This document shows, in pieces, positions 11,675 through 28,443 of a DNA stretch of 41,303 bases (position 1 is the first letter of the stretch; the number at the start of each line of letters is the position of its first letter). This stretch comes from Candidatus Margulisiibacteriota bacterium (GTDB lineage: Bacteria > Margulisbacteria > Riflemargulisbacteria > GWF2-35-9), in assembly GCA_028715625.1 (NCBI GenBank), contig JAQURL010000018.1, positions 1 to 41,303 of the forward strand, read 5' to 3'. The position numbers and the translations under genes were made by a program. Under the pieces are notes generated by a model. That model was given only the letters and a program-made list of their open reading frames with translations. It was not told where the DNA came from and made no database searches.

Positions 11675-12313
11675 ATGGGTCTCAGAGAACCTATGAACGG
11701 TATATTGCACATGATCGGCGCGGCACTGGCCATACCGGCCTTATTACTGCTGGTTTTTTTCAGCCGGGGATCGGCTTTGAAAATAATATCCTTTGCTATT
11801 TACGGTTTATCACTGTTTCTGCTTTACCTTTTCAGTACCCTGCACCATTGCCTTCCCAGGGCTGCCGGTGGCAAGGGGCAAGTTTTTCGTAAACTTGACC
11901 ACCTGGCCATTTACGCATTGATAGCCGGTACATACACGCCCTTCTGCCTGCTCGTAATGAAAGGCTTGGGTGGCTGGATTATCTTTACAGTAATCTGGCT
12001 GATCGCCATAGCGGCAATCTCAGTACAGGCGGTTTTTATCAACCTGCCCCGCAGTTTGACAACAACAGGTTATATATTGATGGGCTGGCTTGTAGTCCTG
12101 AACCTGCCGGCCTTACTCAAAAACCTGCCTCTGGGAGGTTTATTGTGGTTACTGGCCGGAGGAATTATCTATTCTGTAGGTGGAGTAATCTACGCCTTAA
12201 AAAAGCCGCGGGTCTTCAGTTGGCTGGGGTTTCATGAACTCTGGCATTTTTTTGTGCTGGGTGGGTCTGCCTGCCATTTCATAGCTTTGTTTTTCTACGT
12301 GGCCCTTAGGTAA
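11675..12313 (+). CDS. Hemolysin-III/PAQR-family membrane protein
   Basis: A 212-aa integral membrane protein with seven predicted segments. Family marks are EPMNGILHMIGAALAIPALL at the start, FSTLHHCLPR with the paired His in the second segment, LDHLAIYALIAGTYTPFCL in the middle, and the C-terminal FHELWHFFVLGGSACHF. Together the His/Asp residues form the putative metal site of PAQR proteins. Members are linked to membrane homeostasis; the old haemolysin name is not a reliable function. It converges on the ATP-grasp gene, overlapping it by 8 nt. Confidence 0.9.
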   Translation: MGLREPMNGILHMIGAALAIPALLLLVFFSRGSALKIISFAIYGLSLFLLYLFSTLHHCLPRAAGGKGQVFRKLDHLAIYALIAGTYTPFCLLVMKGLGGWIIFTVIWLIAIAAISVQAVFINLPRSLTTTGYILMGWLVVLNLPALLKNLPLGGLLWLLAGGIIYSVGGVIYALKKPRVFSWLGFHELWHFFVLGGSACHFIALFFYVALR

Positions 12314-13304
12314 CAGTTTCAGGGAACAAGAGGTCTACAACCGGTTTCAGCACATTTCTGGACTGCCCGTTACCCGGAAGAGTATGCAAGGAAAATCCAG
12401 GCCTGTGATTAATTTCCAGGACCGAATAATTGGATGCGACAGCCTGGGCTCCGGGGTCTTTTATCAATAAATCAATACCGGTAAATCCCAAATCAGGAAA
12501 AAGACGCAAAATATCATGAGCTACACTGATATAGGAAGGATGAATTTCGTCAGTAACATCTTCACACCAGCCGCCAGAGCCGACATTGGAATTAAATCTT
12601 AACACAAGCTCCTCGCCATCTGCCAGAACATCACTGATTTTATGTTTTTGTTTGCTTAGGGCCCGCACTGCTTCAATGTCCTTGATATAAATGTCGCATA
12701 AGCAGGTATTTCTGGGGTTCAAACGTTTATAATTTTCTTTTTCAATTAAATCAATGATACTGAGCTTGCCATCTCCTGTAATTCTGGGGCAAGTTCGTTT
12801 AATAACCGCTGTGTAGCCTGAGGATGTAACAAAAAACCTGTAATCATCCTGATCGCGTAGATATTTTTCCACCAGGATTACAGGCAAATTATTTTTACGT
12901 ATTTCCTCAAAACAAATAATAAAATCCTCTCTGCTTTCGATATTGCAATAAACATGATAGCCTCCTTCGCTGATGTTGGGCTTTACCACCACAGGAAATT
13001 TTAAGGTATTCTGAGCATAATAGAGGGCCAGGTCCTGGCGATCGGATTCAAATATTCTGCTTTCCGGCACCGGGAATTTTTTTTCTTTTAAAAACACATT
13101 GGTAAAATACTTGTCTCCGAACAAATTGATATATTGTGAGGGTACCAGACGGCTGTCGCAATTCACCAGCAGCTCAATGTGTTTATCAAATCTGGCCTCG
13201 ACAATGTCTGTGTCCGGAATATAACTGAGCTGTATATTACGCTCCTGAAGCTCTCGCAGCAGTAATTGAAAATTAAAATGCAGGTTAGGTGGTATGGGCT
13301 GCAT
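12306..13304 (-). CDS. ATP-grasp ligase of cyanophycin-synthetase/GshF type
   Basis: A 332-aa ATP-grasp enzyme. PVVVKPNISEGGYHVY (about residues 106-121) is the ATP-binding Lys and glycine loop, and YLRDQDDYRFFV, TGDGKLSI and the N-x-S-GG element follow. VLEINHRPGFSLHTLP near the C-terminus supplies metal ligands. The closest pattern is the ligase half of cyanophycin synthetase and of GshF, which activates a carboxylate and joins it to an amine. The substrate is unknown. The frame opens earlier at 13367, but the ATG at 13304 has AGGA upstream and starts where homology begins. It overlaps the radical SAM gene by 20 nt, so the two are coupled and probably act on one molecule. Confidence 0.82.
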   Translation of the reverse strand: MQPIPPNLHFNFQLLLRELQERNIQLSYIPDTDIVEARFDKHIELLVNCDSRLVPSQYINLFGDKYFTNVFLKEKKFPVPESRIFESDRQDLALYYAQNTLKFPVVVKPNISEGGYHVYCNIESREDFIICFEEIRKNNLPVILVEKYLRDQDDYRFFVTSSGYTAVIKRTCPRITGDGKLSIIDLIEKENYKRLNPRNTCLCDIYIKDIEAVRALSKQKHKISDVLADGEELVLRFNSNVGSGGWCEDVTDEIHPSYISVAHDILRLFPDLGFTGIDLLIKDPGAQAVASNYSVLEINHRPGFSLHTLPGNGQSRNVLKPVVDLLFPETVT

Positions 13305-14295
13305 ATTCCATCCTGTTTTCCAGATTATCAAATTCGAATGCTTCCAGGGCCTGACCACAGGCGACATTATATTTAATCTCTTCGTCTATGGCCGGTGCGT
13401 ATGCATAGGCAATTCCCAGATGATTCAGTTGTTCGATAATTTTTTTCAGTTCACTACTGCTCAAAGGTTTCTTGGCTATTATGTCTTCGGTTTTCAATAG
13501 TCCCTCGTACATATGCACACCTTTTACAATATTCCACGGAGACAACCTGACCCAGAATTGTTCTTTTGATAAACGGTCAGTCAAATCTTTAAAATTATAT
13601 TCAAATCCTTTAAATAATATAAAATTTAAGGAAAGCTTTTTTTTAAACTTCTTATAATATAAACCGGTAAAATCGGCGATCTCGGGAATAGTTAATAATG
13701 TTCCTCCCATTTTTTGTCTAAATAACGCTTCCCTCTGCCTGTCGCTGGTGGAATGTACGCTAATTTGCAAATCGGTCGCATTCATCACCTGCGGATGGTC
13801 CAACAACCGGTTAATATTTCGTTTTATACCGCAGGTACTTAGACCGAAGATAACATTGGGAAAGCGCTGTTGTAAGGCATACATAGCTTTCAAGACATTG
13901 TCTGAATTTAATAACGGTTCACCCATCCGGGTAAATAAGATTCTGAACTCATTAGTACAAACAGGATCAGGGTGACGATTATTGCTTACTCCTTCCTGGA
14001 TGAGAAACTCCACCTGCTCAACAATCTCCTCAGCGGACAGATGCTTTATAAAGGATTGTCGGGAAGCGCAGAAAGAACAGGTCATGGGGCAGCCGGCCAT
14101 AGTGCAGATTGTCATCACACGCTTCTTGATATCCGAAGGATTTTGAAAATCAGCGAACCTGTAAGGGCGAGTCCCGGGAGCTGTTTCCCGGCTCATAAAT
14201 ACATCCCCCAACTCCAGCAGTGTATTATGACCGGTAAAATTTGCCAGATATGTCTGACCGCAGGCCAGGTTCAGTTGTTTAACTTTTTGTAACAT
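13285..14295 (-). CDS. RlmN/Cfr-like radical SAM enzyme
   Basis: A 336-aa radical SAM protein. CPMTCSFC gives the cluster cysteines C69, C73 and C76, FTRMGEPLLN is the SAM-binding GEP block, and YNVACGQAL near the C-terminus keeps the Cys (about C313) that carries the methyl group in RlmN and Cfr. It therefore has the parts for methyl-synthase chemistry, but the surrounding sequence differs clearly from housekeeping RlmN (for example no SSQVGC before the cluster). It is coupled to the ATP-grasp ligase, which speaks for a peptide or small-molecule substrate rather than rRNA, though this is inference. A paralogue lies at 27487-28427. Confidence 0.85.
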   Translation of the reverse strand: MLQKVKQLNLACGQTYLANFTGHNTLLELGDVFMSRETAPGTRPYRFADFQNPSDIKKRVMTICTMAGCPMTCSFCASRQSFIKHLSAEEIVEQVEFLIQEGVSNNRHPDPVCTNEFRILFTRMGEPLLNSDNVLKAMYALQQRFPNVIFGLSTCGIKRNINRLLDHPQVMNATDLQISVHSTSDRQREALFRQKMGGTLLTIPEIADFTGLYYKKFKKKLSLNFILFKGFEYNFKDLTDRLSKEQFWVRLSPWNIVKGVHMYEGLLKTEDIIAKKPLSSSELKKIIEQLNHLGIAYAYAPAIDEEIKYNVACGQALEAFEFDNLENRMEYAAHTT

Positions 14296-14334: not shown

Positions 14335-15882
14335 CTAATATGATTTTTTGTAGGTGGGTGAGGTGATAGGCGTATTTTTTTCAGCCTTTTCTGCTCGTAA
14401 CCGTTGTTTTTCTGCTTCATCTGTCATAGCTTCTGCCTGCCGTTTTAATTTGAGCATTCTCTGCTGCAAACTGCTTATTTCATCATCTTTTTGTCTGGTC
14501 TCCTGCTGAAGTGCCCTTAAAGCTTCCTCATATTTAACCTGTAAAGCATCAAATTCTCTTTGATCAACAAGTTTTTTATTTATCCGGTCTACGCAGGCAC
14601 GGATTTTTTTACAATCTTCTATATAATCTTTAGCTTTAGCTACTTGATCATTTAACTTGCCGAACTTGGGATTGTCCGCTGCTATTTTTTTGGATGAACG
14701 CTGATTAATAGCCTCAACCTGTTTATGAATGGTCGTCTCAATTTTACCTACACCGGCTTCCAGCTTGCGGATCTGATCATCCAGTTCATGCCTGTATCTG
14801 CTCACAGCTTCATTCAGCGCAGTTTCAAATTCACCGTCATCAATTTCCAGTTGAGATATGGATTTAATAAAATTCTTCAAAAATTCTTTAGACAAAGCAA
14901 GATCGGGATTAGCCTGCGACGCCTGTAAAAGTTTGGAGGTAATGTCTATTTTTAACTTATTGGCTTCTTCTTCATCAAGCATGCCAAAAAATACCCCGCC
15001 AACTTCCTCCATCATATCCAGAACTACTTTTTTTGCTACAGTGAATTCCGGTCTTAAATCGCCCTGTTTACGCATCATGTTCCAAAAATTTCCATAAAGG
15101 GCTTCAATAAACAAATAGTGTGCTTTTGCTCCATAGGCAGTGGTCGCGATCTTGTCTTCTATTGCCTTCATTTTTCTGGAATGGTCGATAATCTCTTTGG
15201 GACTTAATAACTTGCCGTCTTTATCTTTCTGAAAAACAATAATGGCGATCTTCTTCAGGGTCTGCTGACCGTCCCTAGAGCTCATAAACCGACTAATACC
15301 TGCAAGCATGGCTTCCGCAGATTCCTGCGCTGAAAGCGCGCCCTCAACTCCGGTATTAATGGCGGGAAAGGCTATAGACTGCAAGCCTGCCCTGTCTGCT
15401 GTATCCAAAGCGTTATATACAGCCTCCACTGTAATATCATAGGCAATATCAGGAGCTGCCTGCGCGGTTACTACATGAATAAAAGCTTTAGGCTGATGGG
15501 TGGAAAATCCACTGGAAATGTGCGCATAACCATAGTTTGTTCCGGTAGTGTCTAAAATCTGTTGAAAATTGTCTCTGGCGGCAAGCACCACGGATTCTTC
15601 ACCTGATTTTTTGGCGCGGTCCAGCACCCCTTTGGCCACACCACCTTTAGAAACCTGATAATCAAATTCAGGAATAGCCCAGGCATCTATAGTATCGGCA
15701 ATCGTAATATCCCCGATAGCAATGGCAATTTCCATACCGCCATCCAGTTTTTCCGAGGTTACGTTATAAAACTTTCTACTACCTGCTTTAATATTCTGCA
15801 GGCTTTTAGCCAGTTCACCGGGCTCCTGATAACTATATTTCAGGTTACCTGCCTGATAATCGTTGATTATCTTTTCAAACAC
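14335..15882 (-). CDS. Macro-domain protein with C-terminal coiled coil
   Basis: A 515-aa cytoplasmic protein. Residues about 50-230 form a macro domain, the fold that binds ADP-ribose or related NAD metabolites: IAIGDIT (54-60), the GGVAKG loop (80-85) and AFPAINTGVEG (171-181). The usual NAAN motif after GDIT is replaced by AIPEF, so the catalytic Asn of ADP-ribosyl hydrolases is missing and it may only sense ligand. Residues about 340-510 are a long charged coiled coil. GTG 15882 has GGGAG upstream. It is the last gene of the SLOG-VWA-AAA operon, 78 bp after the ATPase. Function is unknown; it may bring an ADP-ribose signal to the ATPase. Confidence 0.82.
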   Translation of the reverse strand: MFEKIINDYQAGNLKYSYQEPGELAKSLQNIKAGSRKFYNVTSEKLDGGMEIAIAIGDITIADTIDAWAIPEFDYQVSKGGVAKGVLDRAKKSGEESVVLAARDNFQQILDTTGTNYGYAHISSGFSTHQPKAFIHVVTAQAAPDIAYDITVEAVYNALDTADRAGLQSIAFPAINTGVEGALSAQESAEAMLAGISRFMSSRDGQQTLKKIAIIVFQKDKDGKLLSPKEIIDHSRKMKAIEDKIATTAYGAKAHYLFIEALYGNFWNMMRKQGDLRPEFTVAKKVVLDMMEEVGGVFFGMLDEEEANKLKIDITSKLLQASQANPDLALSKEFLKNFIKSISQLEIDDGEFETALNEAVSRYRHELDDQIRKLEAGVGKIETTIHKQVEAINQRSSKKIAADNPKFGKLNDQVAKAKDYIEDCKKIRACVDRINKKLVDQREFDALQVKYEEALRALQQETRQKDDEISSLQQRMLKLKRQAEAMTDEAEKQRLRAEKAEKNTPITSPTYKKSY

Positions 15883-15960
15883 AACAATTCTCCCTTCAAT
15901 TTCAGGTCATTTAAACAATCTTTAAATATATCGACCGCTGTCAAAAAAAATCTCAGGCCT

Positions 15961-18900
15961 TTATCCAAGTAATGAATCAATCTCCTTAAACAGGTCGTCC
16001 ACTTCGTGCAATACTTCTTCCCGTTCCTCAGCAAAAATTCTTTCCAGGGCCATATTCAACTGTTTGGTTATTATTTCAAATTCTTTGTCCATACCGCTTA
16101 TAAGGATCAAAATGTCTTTCATCATAGACTCACTTATCTTGAATTTATGCATTTCCCTGCTTAACTCATTTTTTATTTCCATAAGCTGATCTATAAGAGA
16201 CCGCGCATTATTCAGCTGGTTTTCCAGCTCGCCGGCAGCCGGATTAATGTTTATCGACTTTATGGCTTTCCCAATTTTTATCAATTCCGGCTTAAACTTA
16301 TCCTGCAGCAGAGGAGCGGCTTTTTCCGGTGACAGCAGTTCTTCTATTTCATCGAAAGCCCAGTTAGCAAAAGATAATCCCGCGGCATCCAGTAAATTTT
16401 TCACTTCATTTCTATCTGTTCCGGTGAATTTCGATAAATATACGTCCTCTATGGCATCTGTAATTATTCTTTTTCTTATCTCTTTGCCGCTGCAAACATT
16501 TTGCGCGCGCATAGCAGCGTGTCCGGGTTTATCTTCAACTGTGTCCACAATTTCATCTGTATCTATTTTTTTGAGAATAGCAATCAATTCCCGCCTGGTG
16601 ATAAGAAGCTCCTGATCTGTTTTAGCCAGTTTTCGCAAGCTAATTACCGGATGCACCTGATTGGACAGTCCATAATGGAACTCGGCCAGAGCCTTCAGAA
16701 AACGGTCGGTTTTCATCAATCTGGATAAATTATCAAACTTGACAGGATCTATTTCAGCAGCATACCTGTAACCGTGTATTTCTATTTCCGGCTGTGACCC
16801 GTAAATAAGGTAAGTGAGCATTTGCTCTATTTCAATATCACTGACATTATCTATCTGCAAATACATGGACCAGCGATTGATAGCCGCAGGGCTAAACACT
16901 TTTTTACCAGGGAATTCAGCAGGATTTCCTGTAGCATAATTTCTGGACATTTTATGTATACCGCCATTCTGTTCGGTAAGATTTTCACTGTCGTGTTCCG
17001 ATACCAAAAAGCTTTTTGGCCTTTCCAGCAATGAATTGAAACGTTCGCCTACATTGGTTTCGGACTGGTTAAGTTCGTCCCAGATAGCAGTGTGCCCTTT
17101 GCGATTGGACACAAGTAAATCTTCCTCCAGATAAATCCAGCTGGTAGCCGGTATATATAAACCTTCCAGAACGGCTATTCGTTTGGACTCATCTTCAGTT
17201 AGCGTCCGCTGTTCATTTTGCGCGGATTCTATAAGTTGTACAGTTTCTTCGGTCAGTACCAGATCATTATAATTACAGATAATTTCCATATATCTTGCTG
17301 CCAGTGTTTTATCAGAAGGTACATATTTACCGATAACATCCGCAGGGTTAGTCCTGCCGTTAAAATTTATACGATGTACAGGTTGATTTATCAGACCATC
17401 GAAATAAGTTATTCCGGAAGTTTTGGTAGTAGCCGGTAATCCTTCTATAAGAAGCGGTATATCATATTTGTGCGCTATAGCGATATTCACCAGGAGCCTG
17501 ACAGTCTGCCTGTCCAGACAAAGCCTGCCTTCCGTGTCTAGATTCGGCACCAGCTCCTGCTCTTCTGGAGTCAAATCATTACGGATGTCTACTTTCAAAT
17601 CATGAATATATAAATACTTGCCGTCCGGAGATTTTTCTATTACCGGTCTGGCTACATTGCTGATAGCACGGGGTTTATGATTTAAGCGAAAATAATCCAG
17701 AGCCTTTTCAGCGTCTGATATTTTTGCTTCCTCTGCTTTGGCAATAAGCTCCCCAAGCGGCTTATTTAATTTACCTGGAAGCTTTAAACCTTTCAATAAA
17801 TCAACAGCGTCTTCTCTGACTATCAGATTATCACTATAAGGATTTACAAACAGCTGCCGGATAATATGAAAATTTTTACCGAACATTTCATTGGTTGTAA
17901 GATAATATTCCTTATCAATAACCCCGAACAAGTTTAGCTTCATTTCCACTATAGACTGACGGTCATCAGGGTCCAGTTTGAAACGGCTGGAATAAAATAA
18001 ATCTATACCTCGTAAAAAAGTTTCTACAGGATTATTTTGAAAGGTATAGGACTTGCCGGTTTCCCTGTCAATACTTTCGAATTCTGACAAAAAGCGGAGA
18101 AAACTGATTATATCGCGGCGGGTAAAAGTAAGTTTCTGCTTACGATTGCGGTTAAGAATATTGGATACACACAGTTCCTGTAATTTGTGATGAAAATTGC
18201 CCAGCAAGCCGTAAAACGGCAGAAACTCCGGTTTCATCAGACTTGGGAACTGCGGAGCCCTGTCGTCGGCCTTATAAACTTTACCACGATGCGTAATCTC
18301 CGGTTGTAAACCAAAAGTTAAGAAAGCGATAAGGTCTTTTATTTCCCGAATTGTGGGAGCCTCTACTGTGCGTTTCATCACCCTGCCCCGCAAGTCTTGT
18401 GACTGCTTATGCCGCATACCGTAAACCGTGCCGGCCTGGTTCTGAGCGGCACCGATCCTGAACCATTCGCTGACTTTATCCCTGCCTGCGGCATAACGCG
18501 ACATAGTGCGCGCAGCACCCGGGATACGGATTTTCCTGCCTGCTTCAAATACAGGATTATAAATAGATTGTCTGTCCGCGGGCGCCAGGTTCAGTTCATC
18601 CGCCAGATATAAGCCTCCATAGGTCGCGCTTTCAGGCAAAGGCCCGTCGTTTAAGGTAAAAGGTGTCATGGGCATATCGATATTTTCCAGATCGGCTATT
18701 TGGTGCAAATCATCTTCGGCTATTGGTTTCATATATACACGACCCTGATTTGCGTAGCGGTAACTGTTAATTAATTTGCGGCTTTCAGGGTCAAGCCTGC
18801 TGATATCCTTATCGTGCAGCAACTTGAATAATTGGCTCTGACCTTTGGCGGAATTGGGCACGTATCGGCCCAGGATATCGCCAGGGTCAATTTGTTCGGA

Positions 18901-19251
18901 GTGATTTACTCGCCACATAGGTAAATTTAAAAGAGCCGCGACCAGCACAAAAGCTGTGGTCTTAGCGGCAGCGGTATCACCCTCAGCCAGGGAAACCGCA
19001 TCCGCTTTGAAATCATCAAGGATAGAAAAAACAGTTTGCACAAACGACTGGTCCATGACCAGATTGTTCAGCCACTTTCTTAAATCCGGAACACGGTCCA
19101 GTACCTGGTACGGGACATCTGTTCTTCTGGGTATACGTTTATCTCCGTAACGCAGCCACATACCATCCGGAGTAATGGCAAAAGGAGCCTTGATATTGGT
19201 TATAGGCAGTAATCTGGCTTCCGGGCATATCGCTGTTACTTTTTTATTCAT
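15961..19251 (-). CDS. Double MoxR-like AAA+ ATPase
   Basis: A 1096-aa protein built of two similar MoxR-type units. Unit 1 has a P-loop at 90-99 (EGDTAAAKTT), DPGDILGRYVPNS at 122-134, Walker B GLYLADEL at 213-220 and a lid around 304-390. Unit 2 has GLPATTKT at 604-611, NPADVIGKYVPS at 635-646, Walker B TAIWDEL at 721-727 and a lid around 803-890. Both P-loops lack the usual Gly before Lys but keep Lys-Thr. A helical tail follows to the end. MoxR ATPases normally remodel targets with a VWA partner, and one is encoded directly upstream with an 8-nt overlap. GGAAAG precedes ATG 19251. Confidence 0.85.
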   Translation of the reverse strand: MNKKVTAICPEARLLPITNIKAPFAITPDGMWLRYGDKRIPRRTDVPYQVLDRVPDLRKWLNNLVMDQSFVQTVFSILDDFKADAVSLAEGDTAAAKTTAFVLVAALLNLPMWRVNHSEQIDPGDILGRYVPNSAKGQSQLFKLLHDKDISRLDPESRKLINSYRYANQGRVYMKPIAEDDLHQIADLENIDMPMTPFTLNDGPLPESATYGGLYLADELNLAPADRQSIYNPVFEAGRKIRIPGAARTMSRYAAGRDKVSEWFRIGAAQNQAGTVYGMRHKQSQDLRGRVMKRTVEAPTIREIKDLIAFLTFGLQPEITHRGKVYKADDRAPQFPSLMKPEFLPFYGLLGNFHHKLQELCVSNILNRNRKQKLTFTRRDIISFLRFLSEFESIDRETGKSYTFQNNPVETFLRGIDLFYSSRFKLDPDDRQSIVEMKLNLFGVIDKEYYLTTNEMFGKNFHIIRQLFVNPYSDNLIVREDAVDLLKGLKLPGKLNKPLGELIAKAEEAKISDAEKALDYFRLNHKPRAISNVARPVIEKSPDGKYLYIHDLKVDIRNDLTPEEQELVPNLDTEGRLCLDRQTVRLLVNIAIAHKYDIPLLIEGLPATTKTSGITYFDGLINQPVHRINFNGRTNPADVIGKYVPSDKTLAARYMEIICNYNDLVLTEETVQLIESAQNEQRTLTEDESKRIAVLEGLYIPATSWIYLEEDLLVSNRKGHTAIWDELNQSETNVGERFNSLLERPKSFLVSEHDSENLTEQNGGIHKMSRNYATGNPAEFPGKKVFSPAAINRWSMYLQIDNVSDIEIEQMLTYLIYGSQPEIEIHGYRYAAEIDPVKFDNLSRLMKTDRFLKALAEFHYGLSNQVHPVISLRKLAKTDQELLITRRELIAILKKIDTDEIVDTVEDKPGHAAMRAQNVCSGKEIRKRIITDAIEDVYLSKFTGTDRNEVKNLLDAAGLSFANWAFDEIEELLSPEKAAPLLQDKFKPELIKIGKAIKSININPAAGELENQLNNARSLIDQLMEIKNELSREMHKFKISESMMKDILILISGMDKEFEIITKQLNMALERIFAEEREEVLHEVDDLFKEIDSLLG

Positions 19252-22198
19252 ATTTTATCTTTCCGCTAAATTTATCGTTAGCTTTTGCTTTAAAATCCAA
19301 CAAATCTATGGGAATTTTTTGTTCCGGATAATTCTGTTTAAAGTCGTCGGCAAAAGGCAGATTATTGGTATTCAGCGCATAACGATCAAACATCGGATGA
19401 TTTATCGCTGAATGTAATAAATGTGTCCTCAATAAATTTTTCAAATTTGAACTGCTATTTGTCGATAAATATTGTTGAGGATTCTCCATCATATCTCTGA
19501 GCAACGGAGGAAATACCTCCACAAATTCCTCATGGCTCAGGTTTGGCAAGGCAATAGGATAATGCTTGTCCAGTTCACTTGTTTCCGGCCCAAAGCCAAG
19601 GGCTATAGGCAGGGGTATTACAGCTTCTCTGGCAATAACACCGAGTACCTCAGGTAATTTTTGAGGCTGACCTGTACCGCCATCGGTCAATAAAATCATG
19701 AATTTTATTGTGCCTGGCCGCTGCTTAAATATGTTATAGCCGAATTCCAGGGCTTCCGCGTCATTTGTTCCACCACTGGGCAACTTTACTATGGTACTCA
19801 GACGGTTCCTCATCGCGGGACTCAAATTATCCTCAAAATCTTTCAGGATAACCTGCCCGTAATTAAAACCGATTACACTGTTTTTTATAGAATTTCTTTC
19901 CAGGGCTTCAACTCCCATGGTCAGGCCCACAAAAGCCTGGATAATCTTGCGGTTATCTTTCATGGAGATGGATAAATCGATAAAAAATAAAAACTCGAAA
20001 TCATATTCCTGCGGCAGGGTTTCACGTCCGAAAATCTGGTACAAGGCAGGATTTGCCTGCATCTGCATGGCCATTTCCATGGAAATATAGTTACCGCTAT
20101 CATAGCCATAGCGCAATTGAGGATTTTTATTCTTATATAAAACGTCTCCTATTCCGGTTGTCAGACGGTTTATAGGGTCAGCGAACTTTACCAGCACCTG
20201 TTCATACGGATTTAAAGAAACCAGCAGATCTCCCTGATTAACCGCTTCGTCCAGTTTATTGATAATCTCACGACTTTTTTGCTGGACCTCCTGCAGTTTA
20301 TCCGGTGAAATTTCCGGTTCGGTCTTTATATCCCGAGCCAGAGCCTGCTGATTTAATACCGGACTTGAGACTTGTTTATCTATATTGTCAGGTATTCCGT
20401 CAATATCCGGTCCTGATATTTGTTCCGGGCCTGTTTTAGCGGCATCCTGTTGCATGGCAAATCCGTCTCCACCTGTACCGCCCTGTGCTGATTTGCCAGG
20501 CACACCAGACGGATCTTCAGAAGGTTTATCGCCGGTCTGTTCACCTGTTGCTTCTTTTCCAGCGGAGGCCTTACCTTTATCAGGTTTATTAAATTTATGC
20601 TGACCTTCGTTAATATCCTGCAATTGTTTACCGGCTTCATTTAGGTTATTTTCAAGCTTATTTTCTATTTCGGGTAAAGTATTCTCCTTAGCTTTCTGTT
20701 TAAGTTTTTCTTTCAATTCATCAGAAACCTTGTTCCAGTCTATTTCACCTTTCCAGTCTTTGGGAATTTCAGCAGGAGTTTGAGCTCCGTCCTGACCATC
20801 TTGAACGTCTTTTGCAGGTTGGCCCTGCCCGGATTTATCGTCCGGTAACGTTTCAGGCCCTTCTTCAGGTTTCCGGGTATCTCCCTTCTTACCCATAGCT
20901 GAACCTTTATCCGCAATTTTAGCGCCATCTGGTTGTCCCAGCTCACCCTCAGGTAAACCTTGAGGTGTTTTACCTTCTTTAACAGGTTGTTTTCCAGGTT
21001 CAGCAGCTCCATCAGGTTTACCGGCAGCTTCAGGTTTTTCGTCTCCGGCTTTTCCGGCATCTTGTCCCTGAGCTTTGCCGGTTCCCTGTTTATCTGATCT
21101 TTGAGCAGGTTGTTGAGATCCGGTCTTTTTTTCCGGAGCTGCAGTAGGAGCAGATGACTGACCTCTGTCACCTTCTGCTGATGATGGTTGTCCGGATTGA
21201 CCACTGCCTGCTCCGGGCATGGGCATACCCTGTCCACCCTGCTGTTGATTGTTCGCGTTTTGCATATCTTGAATCGCCTTCATAATAGCTTTTATCAATT
21301 CGTCCATCTCCTGCGGAGTTAACTGATCTAAAATATCTTTACGGCTTGATTCATCAAGCATCTGCTGCCGGGCCCTTTCCAGGTCTTTGAGCTCATCCAG
21401 CATATCGCTATAACCTTTTTTCCAGATTTCCTCAATAACAATCTTAAAGGACTCTGTTGCCGAGCGCTGTACTTCATATTCATCGAGTGACTTTGGTTGT
21501 TCCTTATAGGCCCTGTTAAAGGCGTCCAAAGTTTCATCCAATAACTTGCGAACCCTGTCCGGTAAAACTTTGGATGTTTGCCCGGTTTTCCAAAATTTGA
21601 TTAATTCAGAGGTATAAATGATAAAATCAGGTGTATGGCCAAGGGCCTGCTTGAGGGCAAGCAGTTTCATGGGTTGGCCGAATAATTCGGGATTTTCACC
21701 TGTCAAATAATCATAGGAGAGGTCCTGCCACTTACTGCTTCCGGGTAATTTGCGCAGCATATAATCATTATCCCGCGGGTCCTCTACAGCATTTAGCAAA
21801 GCTCCCAGGGCCATCATTTCAAAATATCCGTCTACTTCCTTTTTTTCTTCCATATCTGCCGCGAATTCCGGGTAACGAGTTATCAGTTTATGAATTATTT
21901 CGTGCAGACTGATAAAATTAAGTTTTAAAATTTCCTGCTTAATATCCAAGGTATCAAAGCTAATCATGATCGGATCAAAAACTATGCGGTTATTGTCAAA
22001 ATCCATAAACGAGCCGCCGCCTGCCTGCCCCCACTGTACCTGCAATTTGCGGTCGGACCTGACCTGATTAATAAGTACTCGCAGCTGGTTTAGTACCGTT
22101 TTACCGAACTTGTTATAGGGATTTTTATAAAAATCCTTTAATAATTCCTGGATTTCTTTCTTTTTACTGTTCAAAACTTCTGCTACTATTTTAAACAT
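19244..22198 (-). CDS. VWA-domain protein with zincin-like N-terminus
   Basis: A 984-aa protein. The N-terminal 300 residues contain HEIIH (99-103) and later NAVEDPRDND (E139), a zinc-metallopeptidase-like arrangement also seen in CobT-type VWA proteins. Residues about 320-640 are a low-complexity linker rich in Gly, Gln, Pro, Lys and Asp. A VWA domain follows with a complete metal-ion site: DLSIS (741-745), Thr811 in GGTND and Asp839 in LLTDGG. The VWA domain should engage the neighbouring MoxR-like ATPase, as in CbbQ/CbbO and RavA/ViaA. It starts five bases after the SLOG gene stop without its own ribosome site and overlaps the ATPase gene. Whether the HExxH site is catalytic is unknown. 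Confidence 0.85.
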   Translation of the reverse strand: MFKIVAEVLNSKKKEIQELLKDFYKNPYNKFGKTVLNQLRVLINQVRSDRKLQVQWGQAGGGSFMDFDNNRIVFDPIMISFDTLDIKQEILKLNFISLHEIIHKLITRYPEFAADMEEKKEVDGYFEMMALGALLNAVEDPRDNDYMLRKLPGSSKWQDLSYDYLTGENPELFGQPMKLLALKQALGHTPDFIIYTSELIKFWKTGQTSKVLPDRVRKLLDETLDAFNRAYKEQPKSLDEYEVQRSATESFKIVIEEIWKKGYSDMLDELKDLERARQQMLDESSRKDILDQLTPQEMDELIKAIMKAIQDMQNANNQQQGGQGMPMPGAGSGQSGQPSSAEGDRGQSSAPTAAPEKKTGSQQPAQRSDKQGTGKAQGQDAGKAGDEKPEAAGKPDGAAEPGKQPVKEGKTPQGLPEGELGQPDGAKIADKGSAMGKKGDTRKPEEGPETLPDDKSGQGQPAKDVQDGQDGAQTPAEIPKDWKGEIDWNKVSDELKEKLKQKAKENTLPEIENKLENNLNEAGKQLQDINEGQHKFNKPDKGKASAGKEATGEQTGDKPSEDPSGVPGKSAQGGTGGDGFAMQQDAAKTGPEQISGPDIDGIPDNIDKQVSSPVLNQQALARDIKTEPEISPDKLQEVQQKSREIINKLDEAVNQGDLLVSLNPYEQVLVKFADPINRLTTGIGDVLYKNKNPQLRYGYDSGNYISMEMAMQMQANPALYQIFGRETLPQEYDFEFLFFIDLSISMKDNRKIIQAFVGLTMGVEALERNSIKNSVIGFNYGQVILKDFEDNLSPAMRNRLSTIVKLPSGGTNDAEALEFGYNIFKQRPGTIKFMILLTDGGTGQPQKLPEVLGVIAREAVIPLPIALGFGPETSELDKHYPIALPNLSHEEFVEVFPPLLRDMMENPQQYLSTNSSSNLKNLLRTHLLHSAINHPMFDRYALNTNNLPFADDFKQNYPEQKIPIDLLDFKAKANDKFSGKIKYE

Positions 22199-22203
22199 GA
22201 GAG

Positions 22204-23967
22204 TCAGCGAATTACCATTGCTTCTCTCTCATTAAGATGATCCTCAAACAATGTGTTCAATCTTTTGGAAGCTTTGTGCAAATCGGAACTTAAAAAATAT
22301 TCTATACCGGGTAAACGCTGTGCGCCGTTAATCTTGTTATAGCTGTTGAAAGACCAATTTCCGACCAATGGGTCGACAATGGCCAGTACTGGAATCCCAT
22401 TTCCTCTTCTACCGCCCTTTGACAGGGCCAGTGCCGCTTCAGTAGCTGTCTGACCACCCCCACCTAAAATCAGAAGAATATCTATAGATTGCAGAAAAAC
22501 TTCAGATTCTGAACCCCATTCCGAACCCCAAACTATCATTCTTTGAGTATTAGCCAGTTTATAACCGATCCCTTTGGAACTCATTATCCCCGAAGATGAA
22601 ATATTCATTTCATTGGAGACTTCATAAAAGCTTTTAACTCCACCGATAGCTGTCATTCCTGAAACATTTTCCAAAAGATCATGATATTTGGGATTGGTGT
22701 TTAACATTAAGGAAGATAAAATCAGCTTATGACGCCCTACATCTGTCTTTCTGCCGGAATTACCGGCGAAACCAAGACGCAATTTATCATGGGTTTCCTT
22801 CATAAACCTGTGCCAGGAAATATGTGTTCCTTTAAAAAGTCTCTGGTCCGGTAAAAGATTATTTTTAGTGAACTCCACAACTTCGTTCGGATCTTCCGTG
22901 TACCAGATGCCGTTATTAAACACTTTGAAAACCTCATCATCAGGATTCAAATACAAAGAAACAACCGGTTTATTTAATCTGGAAGTTGCCAAAGCTTCTG
23001 ATAAAGAACCGCTCCTGCCTCCCAGCAAACACAGCATATCCACAGTATGACCAAAAATGTTGACGTGATCAGTGTAATTTTCTCCGGCAATAGCCAGATA
23101 ATCCATTTTGGGAAAATCTTTACTAAAGGCCCCCTGGGCTTGCAAATGCAATAAATCCTCTATACCTTTCCAAGGCATGATCCCTATGGATAATTTATTA
23201 TTTTTAACTGCCTGCAGATGTGCGTCTTTGATAAATGCCCACATAGTGCCGCCATGCACTATAGCATCGGTCCAGTTATTTAAACCTTCAATAATAGTTT
23301 TAACAGCTTTTGACTGAGATTGAGAATTTATTTTGGCCGGATTGGTCGGGCCGGCAAAACCCAGTTTTAATCCTCCTCCGGTATAAATATCACGGAACTC
23401 CTGCAAGCTCATTCCTCTTCTGGTCAGGCCCAAAGTTTTATTCATAAACCTGCCTAAACCGGGAGGTATTTCATCCATATAAATTCTGTCTGTTAAACCG
23501 GCAAGCAATTCCCGAACCTGTTTGGGATCATAGTATTCATTGCCTATAATAATCTCTTCTGTTCCAGGTTTTAGACCTTTATTATTTACTGTTAGTAAAA
23601 GTTCTTTTGTTTTCGAGTCAATGGCCGCAGAATATTCCTTGTAGCCCTTATAACGGGTTTGATTAAGAATAATATCAGTCAGAGCGTCATTAAATTTTAC
23701 TAAAGCCTTAATGAAATGCACGTAATCTTCTTTAGGCAGTTCATCAATTTGATAAGCAAATATTTTATCCTCAAACTTTATTTCTACAACCCATTTTCCT
23801 TTGACAGGATTCTGAAACTTCACCGGACTGTTGGGGCCCGTAATATAACCGTTAATCAAATCATTAAATTTTTTTAAAGCCCATAAATACATGGCTTGTT
23901 CTGATTTTTTAGGAACTCTGCTGACCGCTCCCTCATTAATTAACTTGGTTTTCATAAAATTCATCAT
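22204..23967 (-). CDS. Tandem SLOG (LOG-like Rossmann) domain protein
   Basis: A 587-aa protein. After about 200 residues I do not recognise come two LOG/SLOG-type Rossmann units: the first from KLGFAGPTN (201) with the phosphate-binding LGGRSGSLSEA (315-325), the second from LRLGFAGNSG (396) with LGGGGQTATEA (501-511). SLOG folds cleave or bind nucleotides; LOG enzymes release bases from nucleoside monophosphates with a GGxGTxxE loop. Here Thr is Ser or Gln but the Glu stays. SLOG units are recurrent sensors in predicted NAD- or nucleotide-based conflict systems. It is first in the four-gene operon. AAAGG precedes several close Met codons, so the start is uncertain by up to 12 nt. Confidence 0.78.
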   Translation of the reverse strand: MMNFMKTKLINEGAVSRVPKKSEQAMYLWALKKFNDLINGYITGPNSPVKFQNPVKGKWVVEIKFEDKIFAYQIDELPKEDYVHFIKALVKFNDALTDIILNQTRYKGYKEYSAAIDSKTKELLLTVNNKGLKPGTEEIIIGNEYYDPKQVRELLAGLTDRIYMDEIPPGLGRFMNKTLGLTRRGMSLQEFRDIYTGGGLKLGFAGPTNPAKINSQSQSKAVKTIIEGLNNWTDAIVHGGTMWAFIKDAHLQAVKNNKLSIGIMPWKGIEDLLHLQAQGAFSKDFPKMDYLAIAGENYTDHVNIFGHTVDMLCLLGGRSGSLSEALATSRLNKPVVSLYLNPDDEVFKVFNNGIWYTEDPNEVVEFTKNNLLPDQRLFKGTHISWHRFMKETHDKLRLGFAGNSGRKTDVGRHKLILSSLMLNTNPKYHDLLENVSGMTAIGGVKSFYEVSNEMNISSSGIMSSKGIGYKLANTQRMIVWGSEWGSESEVFLQSIDILLILGGGGQTATEAALALSKGGRRGNGIPVLAIVDPLVGNWSFNSYNKINGAQRLPGIEYFLSSDLHKASKRLNTLFEDHLNEREAMVIR

Positions 23968-24101: not shown

Positions 24102-25169
24102 TCAACAATTTTTTAAATAAGCGCAGATATTACATGGCCCTGACAACGAATTTAGAGAGCGGTTGGCCAGCGTCGGACTACTGCGCTGCATCTCTTTATA
24201 CAAGGCCGGAAGACCGCCTGAAAAAAGTCGTCTAATGATTTTGCTTTGATTCGCATTGTATAAAATTCCTTCTAAAGATTCTGTCCTTATATTGCCAATC
24301 CTGTGTACAAGACTAAATCCCGGACAGGCAAAAACATCTCCGTTAGCACGCACAAATAATCTTGGCCCCAGATAGTCATTATTATTAATAACGGCTTGCG
24401 GTGAACAGTTTAATATTCGTTCATTGAAGCGCTCCACCAGCATCTCCAGCCCGGTTTCTTCATTATCCCTAGTAGATTTTCTTATAGCTGTTGAACATAA
24501 AACCGGGTCAACGATTTTGATAAAATGAAAATCAAATAAATTTAGAGGTAGCTGATACTTATCCAAAAGAAGTTGAAATTCCTTTTCAATTTTTTCCATA
24601 TTTTCAGGGTTATAGTCAAAATTAGCCAAGGTTATGAAAAAACGCTCCGGATCCAGTAAGGTTAAAGCGCTGACCAGAGCATATATGCTATTCAACAGCG
24701 GAATCCCGGCTATATTCTGCTGACCCTGCGAAATATACAAACCGGGCTTTAAGAATCGGTTATGGGTTGAAAAATACAGTCTTGTTAACAATTTTTCAGT
24801 ATTCTGTATGGTGTCAAAGGCAAAACCGTTAGTATTAATTTTATATAAATCCAGAGGAGCGATTTTTATTATTTCCAAAAGCCTGTCAAAACTCTGGAAG
24901 GGTTCGCCTCCGGTCAGAGTATAAAAAGCAATGCCCGTTCCGGCTGCCCCCGCAAAAATTTTTTCTATAATTTCCGTAGACAATACATTCGCAGATTTTT
25001 CCACGGCACATCCAGCGCAACCAAGGTTACAGGCAGCCGTTATTTCCAGTTCCATGCCCAGCGGACGGTAAACCCAGTCCGCCGGATACCTGCTTTGATG
25101 ATCATTACAAAAGCCGGAAAGATCCTGAAAAGGGCTATAGGGCAGAAAATAGGAAAATTTTTTATTCAC
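24102..25169 (-). CDS. Radical SAM enzyme with SPASM-like C-terminus
   Basis: A 355-aa radical SAM enzyme. CNLGCAGC gives the cluster cysteines C47, C51 and C54, and TLTGGEPFQS is the GGEP SAM-binding motif. The C-terminal part has FACPGFS with a following R-IGNIR and ends in GPCNICAYLKNC, a cysteine set like the auxiliary-cluster SPASM/twitch domains of peptide-modifying enzymes. A GTG start at 25169 follows AGGGG by eight bases. It is divergent from the B12 radical SAM operon through a shared palindromic -10 element. No precursor peptide gene is obvious in the spacer. The substrate is unknown. Confidence 0.85.
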   Translation of the reverse strand: MNKKFSYFLPYSPFQDLSGFCNDHQSRYPADWVYRPLGMELEITAACNLGCAGCAVEKSANVLSTEIIEKIFAGAAGTGIAFYTLTGGEPFQSFDRLLEIIKIAPLDLYKINTNGFAFDTIQNTEKLLTRLYFSTHNRFLKPGLYISQGQQNIAGIPLLNSIYALVSALTLLDPERFFITLANFDYNPENMEKIEKEFQLLLDKYQLPLNLFDFHFIKIVDPVLCSTAIRKSTRDNEETGLEMLVERFNERILNCSPQAVINNNDYLGPRLFVRANGDVFACPGFSLVHRIGNIRTESLEGILYNANQSKIIRRLFSGGLPALYKEMQRSSPTLANRSLNSLSGPCNICAYLKNC

Positions 25170-25263: not shown

Positions 25264-26628
25264 ATGAATATCCTGTTCCTGCACATATCCGAACATACTA
25301 ATAATAAATTTCGTACTAACCTGGTTCCCTGCGGAATGTTCGGGCTGGCCGATTATATATCGAACAGCGGAGCAAATGTGAAAATAATTCATAAAGAACT
25401 GGAAGAGCTGTTAAATCCGGGATTCTCTATTACCGAGCACATAGCAAAAAATAAATACAGGATTGTCTGTATGGACCTGAATTATCACACACAAGCTTTC
25501 AGCGTGATTAAATATGCCCAACTAATAAAGCACAGTTTTACCGACACTTATATTTGTCTGGGAGGGATGACGGCTTCTCTTTACGCAAATGAAATCCTGG
25601 AAAACTTTCCTGAACTTGATTTTATTATTCGGGGAGACAGTGAAGAGCCACTTCTGCGACTTATTACCGCGTTAAAAAACAAACAATCTCCAGTTCTTAT
25701 AAAAGGGATCAGTTACCGACAGGGCAAAAGGATATTTAACAACGAACTTGCGGGCTCTATAAAGCCGGATATATTGAATAATATCTCATTTTCTAACTAT
25801 AGTCTGCTCGCTCATTACGACGAATACCTACGTCTGCGTATGGGCACGCCGATACTGTATAAAGAACGTCAGGCATATTACTCGGCGGGACGTAACTGCA
25901 ACAAAAACTGCAGTTTCTGCGGAGCATCGGTCGATGTTAAAAAAAAGTTATCCGTCAACGGAGCTACTTTATGGAAAAGCATACCTTCTGTTCTCAACGA
26001 TTTCAAAAAATTCAAGGAATATCAAATAAGCAGTTGGAATACCTGCTGGGATCCACCTGATAATCATGAGTATTATCTGGAATTATTTAACAAAATAAGA
26101 AAAAATAACATTTATTTAAAATTAGTTTTCGATTGTTTTGATCTGCCTCACACTGAATTTATCAGGGCAGTACGGCAAACTTTTATCAGCGGTTCTGTTT
26201 TGACCCTTTCCCCGAACTCAGGGTCGCAGCAAGTCAGGGTAAATAATAAGTTGAGCAAGTACTCAAATGAAAAAATTTTTGAAACTTGCGATTTGATAGC
26301 CAAAAACAGCCTGCTTTGCAGTATTTATTTTTCAGCAGGATTTGCCGGCGAAAAAATCAGTGATACAAAAAAAACCATTAAACTTATTCAGCAAATAAAA
26401 AACAAATTTCCTAACTTCAGGATAATTGCTGAAATGATTGAACCTGAACCTTTTGCAAACGCTTTGATGTCAGATAATGACGGTGACTTGACTGGTTTTC
26501 CAAAAACATTTATGGACTATTATCAATTGCACAAAGACGGAAAAGAACTGTCGTACGGCACAAAATACTTTAAATTTGAGGAAATAAAAGAGATAATTGG
26601 AGAGTATAACACTTATGCATCAAACTGA
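25264..26628 (+). CDS. B12-binding-domain radical SAM protein
   Basis: A 454-aa protein of the cobalamin-binding radical SAM class. The N-terminal 140 residues resemble the Rossmann B12 domain (CLGGMTASLYANEIL and the P-E-x-D-F-I-x-x-G-D-x-E element), without the His ligand of the DxHxxG type. The radical SAM core has NCNKNCSFCGAS with C212, C216 and C219. Class members often methylate unactivated carbons. AGAAGGA precedes ATG 25264 by eight bases. It is first of three overlapping genes with the methyltransferase and RlmN-like genes, so a shared multistep modification is likely. The substrate is unknown. Confidence 0.85.
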   Translation: MNILFLHISEHTNNKFRTNLVPCGMFGLADYISNSGANVKIIHKELEELLNPGFSITEHIAKNKYRIVCMDLNYHTQAFSVIKYAQLIKHSFTDTYICLGGMTASLYANEILENFPELDFIIRGDSEEPLLRLITALKNKQSPVLIKGISYRQGKRIFNNELAGSIKPDILNNISFSNYSLLAHYDEYLRLRMGTPILYKERQAYYSAGRNCNKNCSFCGASVDVKKKLSVNGATLWKSIPSVLNDFKKFKEYQISSWNTCWDPPDNHEYYLELFNKIRKNNIYLKLVFDCFDLPHTEFIRAVRQTFISGSVLTLSPNSGSQQVRVNNKLSKYSNEKIFETCDLIAKNSLLCSIYFSAGFAGEKISDTKKTIKLIQQIKNKFPNFRIIAEMIEPEPFANALMSDNDGDLTGFPKTFMDYYQLHKDGKELSYGTKYFKFEEIKEIIGEYNTYASN

Positions 26629-27499
26629 AGAACTTTTTAACAAACTGAAAACAATCGAAAACCATATCGAAAAGCTTTCGCCAACTGAAAAAAACAACCT
26701 TTATAAAGATCTGGACAATATGCTTATCAGATTAAACAGCAAGGCTTACACCGAATCGGATTATATTGAAAGAAATCCCTTTGACATGCCCAGAAGGATC
26801 AGGGATTTTTTCTATTGCTTCGAGCGCTATCATGATCACGCCCTGGCCTGGGAAGAAGTACTGAAAAAAATAGATTTAACAGACATAAACGGTATACTTG
26901 ATCTCTGCCCGGGGAACGGTCCTAAAGCCGCTATTGCCCTGCATTATCTTGACTTTAGGGGAACACTTTACCATCTGGACAAGGACGAAGCTGCTTCAAA
27001 TGTACTGCTTACTTTTATTAAAATGTTCAGGTCTCGTTTTACTCTTAAATATATTAATCAGGATTTCTTTGAATATAACGGACAAAAAGTGGACATGCTA
27101 ATTGCCAATCATGTTATTGACGATCTGTTAATAGATAAATATTGTAAAACATCCGGTGTTTTACTTGAACATATTTATGAATCCAATGACTTATTTCTGG
27201 ACACTATAAAAAGAATAACGGATGAACCTGATTCCGTGAGGACTGAGTACGCCGAACACATAGCGCTAACTCTTTCCAGGTATTTGTTACCGGGAGGCAC
27301 TGCAATCTTTTGTCACTATAGCGGACTGGTTGAAGAAAGCTTGAAAATCCATTATTGGGCGGATTATTGCAAAATGATGCTGGAAGAAATGCTCGAGAAA
27401 CTGGGTAATTACGGATTTGTTTTTTCACGCAAAACAGAAAACAAAAATATGAACAGTGTCTTTTATTTTTATGAAAAATCAACAGAATGTTCAAAATAA
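26615..27499 (+). CDS. SAM-dependent methyltransferase-like protein
   Basis: A 294-aa protein. After a helical N-terminus (about 80 residues) it has a class I methyltransferase core: ILDLCPGNGPKAA is motif I, TLYHLDKDEA ends in the acidic residue of the second strand, VDMLIANHVIDDLL is motif IV, and LLPGGTAIFCHY is the sixth strand. The frame opens at a TTG (26597), but ATG 26615 with GGAGAG ten bases before it is preferred. The gene overlaps its upstream neighbour by 14 nt and the RlmN-like gene by 13 nt, so it is translationally coupled in the operon. The substrate is unknown. Confidence 0.75.
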   Translation: MHQTEELFNKLKTIENHIEKLSPTEKNNLYKDLDNMLIRLNSKAYTESDYIERNPFDMPRRIRDFFYCFERYHDHALAWEEVLKKIDLTDINGILDLCPGNGPKAAIALHYLDFRGTLYHLDKDEAASNVLLTFIKMFRSRFTLKYINQDFFEYNGQKVDMLIANHVIDDLLIDKYCKTSGVLLEHIYESNDLFLDTIKRITDEPDSVRTEYAEHIALTLSRYLLPGGTAIFCHYSGLVEESLKIHYWADYCKMMLEEMLEKLGNYGFVFSRKTENKNMNSVFYFYEKSTECSK

Positions 27500-28272
27500 A
27501 AAAAAGCAGAAAATTTGCCAACGGGATTGTATACTTGCTGGAAACCGATGACGGATATCCTCTGGAGGTTACGGACACGTTTCTTCCATATTATACAAAA
27601 TTCTGTATTAACAAGCATTCCAACAAATTAAACAAAAATGATCCAGGCTCAAGAACCGAACGCTGGATGATAGGAGTTTCTGTAATGTCCGGGTGCCCTG
27701 TACATTGCAAATTCTGTGCCACCGGTAAACTGAAAAAATGGAGAAATCTGACAGCTGAAGAAATTGCGGCACAAGTTGAATTTATAATTTCCAGGAATAA
27801 TTATAATCCAAAAAACAGTAAAGAGTTCAAGATTAATTATACCCGAATGGGGGAACCTTTTTTAAACACGGAAAATGTCAAAAAAGCCATCAGACTTGTC
27901 AATAAACTACATACAAATGTCCATCATTATATCTCGACCATCGGTATTAAAAAAAGTGACATGGCCTGGATAAAAAACAACATGACATTACAATTAAGCC
28001 TGCACAGTACTGATGAACAAAGACGAAAAGGACTTATCCCCTATACGAACAAAATGTCCATTTCAGAACTGGGTCAAGTCCGCACTAAAAGCGCTTTGAA
28101 AACTACTTTAAACCTGACCCTGGTGGATAAAAAAGATTTTGATATAAAAATACTGCGCGAATATTTTGATCCCGAATATTTTTTTATAAAACTCTCGCCT
28201 ATTAATAAAAACAGCATCTCTGAAAAGCATAAACTGGGTAAAGGAATCATAAAACAAACAAATCTGCTTTGA
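27487..28272 (+). CDS. RlmN-like radical SAM enzyme, C-terminus out of frame
   Basis: A 261-aa radical SAM protein with cluster cysteines in CPVHCKFC (C70, C74, C77) and the GEP block NYTRMGEPFLN, as in the paralogue at 13285-14295. It stops at TGA 28270-28272, about 60 residues short of that paralogue and before the CGQ block that carries the methyl Cys. That block is found downstream in the -1 frame (28308-28427), and the -1 frame is open from 28242 on. So this is a frameshifted gene, a recoded gene or a true two-part enzyme. CTT TGA at the stop recalls the prfB +1 site, but +1 runs only nine codons. Confidence 0.8.
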   Translation: MFKIKKSRKFANGIVYLLETDDGYPLEVTDTFLPYYTKFCINKHSNKLNKNDPGSRTERWMIGVSVMSGCPVHCKFCATGKLKKWRNLTAEEIAAQVEFIISRNNYNPKNSKEFKINYTRMGEPFLNTENVKKAIRLVNKLHTNVHHYISTIGIKKSDMAWIKNNMTLQLSLHSTDEQRRKGLIPYTNKMSISELGQVRTKSALKTTLNLTLVDKKDFDIKILREYFDPEYFFIKLSPINKNSISEKHKLGKGIIKQTNLL

Positions 28273-28307
28273 TTTGCATTATGTGGAAGGCCGGGTATAA
28301 TATTTAT

Positions 28308-28427
28308 ATGGAAAAAATCATTGAACAACTGGAAAAAGAAAATTATGATTACGCAGTGGCTATTGCCACCGAAGCTGAAATAGCTGCCGAAGCAGCTTGC
28401 GGTCAATTATCCCTGATCGAAGAATAA
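28308..28427 (+). CDS. C-terminal piece of the RlmN-like enzyme in another frame
   Basis: An ATG at 28308 opens 39 codons: IIEQLEKENYDYAVAIAT, then AACGQLSLIEE. The paralogue at 13285-14295 has KIIEQL and NVACGQAL at the matching places, so this is the missing C-terminal helix and methyl-carrying Cys of the preceding gene. A TATAAT at 28296-28301 stands six bases before the ATG, like the leaderless genes of this window, but it may simply be the codons for Tyr-Asn. The pieces would fuse by a -1 shift near 28262-28272. Confidence 0.65.
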   Translation: MEKIIEQLEKENYDYAVAIATEAEIAAEAACGQLSLIEE

Positions 28428-28443
28428 CATAATTTGACCGGAA

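Follow-up and report, generated by a model that had tools for sequence, protein, structure and literature searches.

Here we describe a run of minus-strand genes in a 41,303-nucleotide stretch of DNA (Candidatus Margulisiibacteriota bacterium, assembly GCA_028715625.1, contig JAQURL010000018.1, positions 1 to 41,303), hereafter the window, which is one contig (C18) of a 2.63-Mb genome labelled G000. Positions 14335-23967 encode a tandem SLOG protein, a VWA protein with a putative zincin domain, a tandem AAA ATPase and a macro-domain protein, and radical SAM and ATP-grasp genes accompany them. Our preferred reading, to which we assign a probability of roughly 0.4, is that the locus encodes a nucleotide-controlled unfoldase-protease serving a client or ligand that is made or modified by radical SAM and ATP-grasp enzymes, and that it acts as an accessory stress or conflict system. 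This reading draws on the gene order and shared contig in a second genome (G007), co-occurrence in 2 of 55 genomes, a single-chain fusion, a match to midasin, a related phage pair, conservation of the metal-ion-dependent adhesion site (MIDAS), a second macro cluster and defence neighbours in G007, and also on published precedents for a radical SAM gene beside a MoxR-vWA ternary system and for SLOG and macro domains as receptors in Thoeris.

We infer a complex in which the tandem AAA protein would form a midasin/CobS-like ring, three copies giving six modules. The MIDAS of the VWA partner, carried on a flexible charged linker, would capture a client peptide that the N-terminal HExxH domain would then cut. 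The tandem SLOG protein may make or bind a nucleotide, probably derived from NAD or ADP-ribose, and the macro/coiled-coil protein may read that nucleotide without hydrolysing it while tethering or gating the AAA/VWA machine. The task of the radical SAM and ATP-grasp enzymes would be either to modify a client, whether peptide or protein, or to build the ligand. A bolder form of this proposal is a two-gene prokaryotic midasin analogue with a built-in protease, switched by the SLOG/macro nucleotide, whose client would be either a peptide altered by the radical SAM and ATP-grasp enzymes or the macro protein's own Ser/Tyr-rich tail in modified form; it would be an undescribed kind of signalling-controlled system, and we regard it as doubtful.

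An earlier note on this DNA had described four co-directional genes here, and both their coordinates and their spacing were confirmed. The SLOG (22204..23967, 587 aa), zincin-VWA (19244..22198, 984 aa), tandem AAA (15961..19251, 1096 aa) and macro (14335..15882, 515 aa) open reading frames (ORFs) are separated, as calculated from these coordinates, by 5, -8 and 78 bp. The minus-strand run extends beyond them, however, in the order SPASM radical SAM, SLOG, VWA, AAA, macro, RlmN-like and ATP-grasp. Scans for promoters and terminators across the cluster gave sites no more frequent than in shuffled sequence, and the case for an operon is thus built on spacing, strand and conservation.

The four ORFs are not a chance array, since orthologues of all four, at about 30-54% identity, are found in G007, a genome of the same class as that of the window and of a different family. 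There the VWA, AAA, macro and ATP-grasp genes are contiguous and in the same order as in the window, with the SPASM enzyme convergent beside them. Orthologues of the SPASM and ATP-grasp proteins were present in only 2 of 55 genomes, G000 and G007, and the SLOG orthologue was confined to the same two apart from one weak, unrelated match. That match, in G032 (1.7e-7), belongs to a different, 927-aa protein in another gene setting and was rejected as an orthologue. VWA and AAA were found together in G000, G007 and G023 only, among 383 genomes, G023 being a member of the same phylum in which the AAA relative is a 34% match. When the genome contig collection was scanned with two peptide patterns, only G023 was matched, which is weak negative evidence.

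The ATPase (Pfam AAA_5, 9.9e-9; AAA_3, 4.8e-8) contains two modules, each with a P-loop (GDTAAAKT at residues 91-98 and GLPATTKT at 604-611) and a Walker B motif ending in DE (LADE and IWDE). Across three orthologues the residue preceding the P-loop Lys is Ala, Ser or Thr instead of Gly in both modules. Profile comparison with solved structures placed midasin at the top, with a best single-domain independent E value of 1e-16 to 3e-17; the whole-chain value of 2e-87 is inflated by the many repeats. CobS came next (1e-5), while NorQ, the MoxR-like structure 2r44 and CbbQ were weaker than both, and the CobS family model itself scored 21 bits against a cut-off of 558.55. By these comparisons the ATPase is nearer to midasin and CobS than to classical MoxR. 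Because dynein-midasin, MoxR, YifB and the chelatases have been grouped in one clade (PMC7159879), the label "MoxR-like" is correct at the clade level only. The window proteins resemble midasin (Rea1/Mdn1), their closest solved AAA structure, in joining dynein-type tandem AAA modules to a MIDAS on a long charged linker, here split over two polypeptides. Midasin is a single chain with six AAA modules, a MIDAS on a long charged linker and no protease domain, and it functions in ribosome (pre-60S) assembly, whereas the window AAA protein has two modules only and a partner with an HExxH domain. The G023 orthologue (L012:8907-12212) additionally has a C-terminal Cro/C1-type helix-turn-helix (HTH_3, 3.9e-11), and a neighbouring 144-aa gene also encodes a helix-turn-helix. 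The genes flanking the G023 pair (L012:7078-8946 and 14847-15962) share an N-terminal helical segment, KIQEL..K.AE..LSEQEGL, with no known domain, and are a possible partner family.

The VWA protein carries HExxH at residues 99-103 and NxxED at 136-140, followed by a charged linker rich in G, K, Q and P (about 320-650) and the VWA/MIDAS domain (about 733-930; Pfam VWA, 1.2e-6). The MIDAS residues DxSxS, GGTND and TDG or SDG are conserved among its VWA relatives, and HExxH and NxxED are invariant across four sequences. The term zincin is a putative, motif-based assignment from these two motifs, which also occur in a phage CobT-like protein. A further G007 protein (L013:2-4258, contig C7) is a single AAA-AAA-zincin-VWA chain of at least 1418 aa, its N terminus cut off by the contig start, with HExxH...NVIED and a second P-loop of GLTAAAKS. 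Judged from sequence, it is a Rosetta-stone protein in which counterparts of both core genes are fused, and it supports the pairing of AAA with VWA.

The phage relative comes from Gordonia phage ChisanaKitsune (L043:1450-4531), in which an AAA protein with the P-loop GPTGSAKT lies next to a CobT-like protein that has HELCH...NVLED and a C-terminal VWA; profile E values were 5e-11 to the window AAA and 4e-7 to the window VWA. The GxxxxAKT P-loop together with HExxH...NVLED in this pair suggests a common signature of AAA proteins linked to a zincin-VWA. Jumbo phages of group 2.2 also encode a MoxR plus metallopeptidase-vWA pair, for which a role in virion assembly has been proposed (PMC7824862). 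In both these and the Gordonia pair, an N-terminal HExxH metallopeptidase is fused to a C-terminal vWA beside an AAA protein, a layout that the window matches in its HExxH motif and putative metallopeptidase domain, and the Gordonia pair also shares the AKT-type P-loop and NxxED. The AAA and zincin-VWA genes could be a domesticated phage virion-assembly chaperone that now processes a host client and has no more than a loose link to the other genes, and the common P-loop variant and domain layout, as well as the proposed virion-assembly role, are in keeping with this. We consider such an origin very improbable, however, as the similarity is distant and the AAA of the phage pair examined is a single module without the tandem duplication. 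That pair sits in a phage setting, where genes for SLOG, macro, radical SAM and ATP-grasp proteins were not seen adjacent to it. Moreover, the window proteins that were scanned included none encoded by phage genes. Phages searched with AAA, VWA and SLOG, and plasmids searched with AAA, SLOG and macro, gave only distant VWA matches, and viral contigs scanned with AAA (protein and alignment) and with VWA and SLOG alignments yielded no relative.

The proposed nucleotide modules differ in how firmly they can be assigned. Residues of about 200-370 in the SLOG protein match LDcluster4 (PF18306, 2.9e-7) at 30.6 bits against a curated cut-off of 26.3, which makes the first half certain. A SLOG-like character for the second half (about 395-587) is judged from a GGGxQTAxEA motif and a weak profile match between the two halves (E 3.7e-4 with a probability of just 37%). 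The G007 orthologue is 54% identical over 454 aa and lacks a counterpart of the N-terminal extension (residues 1-130); the predicted structure had a mean predicted local distance difference test (pLDDT) score of 47 and was not used. The macro protein matched Pfam Macro (7.1e-8) at 32.9 bits against a cut-off of 22. Macro-domain hydrolases carry their catalytic Asn in the NAAN loop. In the three macro homologues that loop is replaced by DAWAIP (window) or DAWVVP (both G007 proteins), while the GD of the GDIT motif and the PA[IL]NTG loop are retained. Since the catalytic loop is absent, the protein is more likely a ligand reader than an ADP-ribosyl hydrolase. All three proteins continue into a C-terminal coiled coil and a Ser-rich tail with Tyr or Trp. 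These tails read SPTYKKSY in the window protein, SASSRSSWG in the first G007 protein (L011:6294-8003) and SSYSPVYSGRSSGYGSNE in the second (L042:3658-5550), and they are possible, if speculative, modification sites. A 622-aa neighbour of the G023 pair was unrelated by macro profile comparison. Among the domain calls of the earlier note, then, VWA, macro, both AAA modules and the first SLOG half stood; the second SLOG half is weak and the zincin call has motifs behind it.

The second G007 macro/coiled-coil protein (L042:3658-5550, L040; contig C61) heads a run of B12-radical SAM, CoaE-like kinase, radical SAM-DUF3419, methyltransferase and ATP-grasp genes, so the link between macro, ATP-grasp and radical SAM genes recurs. 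This cluster sits at a contig end, the contig stopping 274 bp upstream of the macro gene. An attempt to join it to an AAA-VWA gene found no shared k-mer of 15-60 bases among the contig ends of C38, C7 and C61.

Radical SAM and ATP-grasp genes flank the four genes in the window. The SPASM-type radical SAM gene (24102..25169, minus strand, 355 aa) is the first of the run, 134 bp upstream of SLOG; its Pfam Fer4_12 and SPASM matches exceed their cut-offs, and its G007 orthologue (9019-10080) is 42-43% identical. The RlmN/Cfr-like radical SAM gene (13285..14295, minus strand, 336 aa) starts 39 bp after macro. Its match to the RlmN model (5.2e-21) is far below the equivalog cut-off, its CxxxCxxC and ACGQ motifs are intact, and it has a paralogue at 27487. 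The ATP-grasp ligase (12306..13304, minus strand, 332 aa) matches the cyanophycin-synthetase/GshAB-like family, and its orthologue lies directly after macro in G007 with 49% identity. Its start was set at the ATG that matches the start of that orthologue, which gives a 20-bp overlap with the RlmN-like gene; the longest ORF begins at 13367.

With four radical SAM genes, one methyltransferase and one ATP-grasp gene within 16 kb, the locus might instead be a biosynthetic cluster, in which radical SAM, B12-radical SAM, methyltransferase and ATP-grasp enzymes would make a peptide- or cofactor-like product, the AAA-VWA pair would be a maturation chaperone for metal insertion or activation (as CobS/CobT and NorQ/NorD are), and SLOG and macro would process or bind an intermediate. 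We hold this alternative tentatively, and a biosynthetic role is nearly as likely as an accessory role in stress or conflict. The G007 locus also holds an AMP-binding/peptidyl carrier protein/reductase protein, an asparagine synthase, a NadR-like adenylyltransferase and more B12-radical SAM genes, and the second macro cluster brings together radical SAM, CoaE-like kinase, methyltransferase and ATP-grasp genes. MoxR-VWA pairs are known to insert metals, and CobS is a recognisable relative of the window ATPase; similarity to CobT is detectable as well. CobS/CobT and NorQ/NorD have a single AAA module, however, and keep different gene company. No CobN/ChlH-like chelatase subunit, NOR client or other obvious client enzyme was found among the genes scanned with Pfam and NCBIfam, and the zincin and MIDAS motifs suit peptide handling. 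G000 and G007 have different biosynthetic neighbours at this locus, the exceptions being the ATP-grasp, the SPASM enzyme, the methyltransferase and distant B12-radical SAMs, and the G023 VWA-AAA pair stands without these genes. The two readings may be one, because MoxR-VWA pairs insert metals and a radical SAM gene is present in one of the MoxR-vWA conflict subsets described in the literature.

Beside its SLOG gene, the G007 locus (C38, 24.4-42.1 kb; L022, L023) carries a zeta toxin and then a type I restriction-modification locus with an embedded IetA/IetS pair. Because of these neighbours and the patchy distribution, the role of the locus is probably accessory, in stress or conflict. The proximity to defence genes that the earlier note named as a check was seen in this genome, but the neighbours in the window are metabolic rather than defence genes. 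This and several other results weigh against an unfoldase-protease with such a role. No effector toxin was found, the radical SAM and ATP-grasp content is equally compatible with biosynthesis, and the zincin region had no Pfam match and gave no meaningful fold match from a low-confidence model (pLDDT 66). The SLOG gene of G007 is on the same contig but about 14 kb from the core, with methyltransferase homologues in between. The VWA-AAA pair of G023 has neither SLOG nor macro alongside, showing that it can occur alone. Complete instances number two, both in Margulisbacteria.

The same observations bear on the idea that the four genes form one system. Two genomes carry all four on a single contig and keep VWA, AAA and macro in the same order, which upholds the idea in part. 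It is weakened by the second macro cluster, the displaced SLOG gene and the solitary G023 pair. The four genes might on their own make up an anti-invader system in which a nucleotide handled by SLOG or macro would gate the ATPase; the tight spacing, the patchy distribution and the G007 defence neighbours speak in its favour. We nevertheless judge it unlikely, as the distribution of the ATP-grasp and SPASM genes follows that of the four just as closely, the four proteins had no convincing match to a PADLOC defence model, and no conserved four-gene synteny turned up in unrelated taxa outside the phylum.

Of the known systems, the MoxR-vWA ternary conflict systems (Kaur et al. 2020, PMC7159879) list SLOG and macro among their attached domains, and a subset of the FtsH type includes a radical SAM gene for which modification of a peptide effector has been suggested. 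These systems share with the window a core of MoxR-clade AAA and vWA, the SLOG/macro domains and, in that subset, radical SAM. The window locus differs in having no VMAP, iSTAND, FtsH or beta-propeller (Pfam and PADLOC for the four proteins, Pfam for the neighbours), in the zincin motif of its vWA, in its tandem AAA, and in keeping SLOG and macro as separate conserved genes rather than swapped effectors. SLOG and macro domains also serve as receptors of ADP-ribose-type signals in Thoeris (PMC11204291), but family scans of the cluster and its right flank detected no TIR ThsB, SIR2 or TM-macro ThsA. Within the open-access literature we found no published description of MoxR with vWA and SLOG, of macro with MoxR, VWA and metallopeptidase, or of radical SAM with ATP-grasp and macro. 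The combination of an AAA/zincin-VWA pair with SLOG, macro, radical SAM and ATP-grasp thus appears to be undescribed there; the AAA-VWA core belongs with known MoxR-vWA-centred systems. If correct, the unfoldase-protease reading would join midasin/MoxR mechanochemistry, NAD/ADP-ribose signalling domains and radical-SAM/ATP-grasp chemistry, which are usually separate fields. With AAA and zincin-VWA encoded separately here and a related chain combining them in G007, there is a small bacterial model for how a MIDAS on a flexible linker works, and the shared P-loop variant, in which Lys is preceded by Ala, Ser or Thr, provides a sequence handle for finding further members.

The GC content at third codon positions of the cluster (0.36-0.44) is similar to that of the remaining window, with no sign of recent foreign origin. 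When four genomes of the same family were compared for an empty site, a hemolysin-III-like homologue was present in 4/4 and the cluster was not beside it; no insertion boundary could be defined, as gene order is not conserved among the four. Divergent from the run on the plus strand is a B12-binding radical SAM gene (25264..26628, identified by family scan), a 27% match to G007 C61 56247-57617 in the second macro cluster. It is followed by a SAM-dependent methyltransferase (26597..27499, plus strand) with homologues in the G007 locus (33% identity, 7e-52). The second RlmN-like gene (27487-28430, plus strand) has an ORF that ends at 28272, with the ACGQL motif in another frame just downstream; this frameshift-like arrangement looks like a pseudogene or an assembly error.

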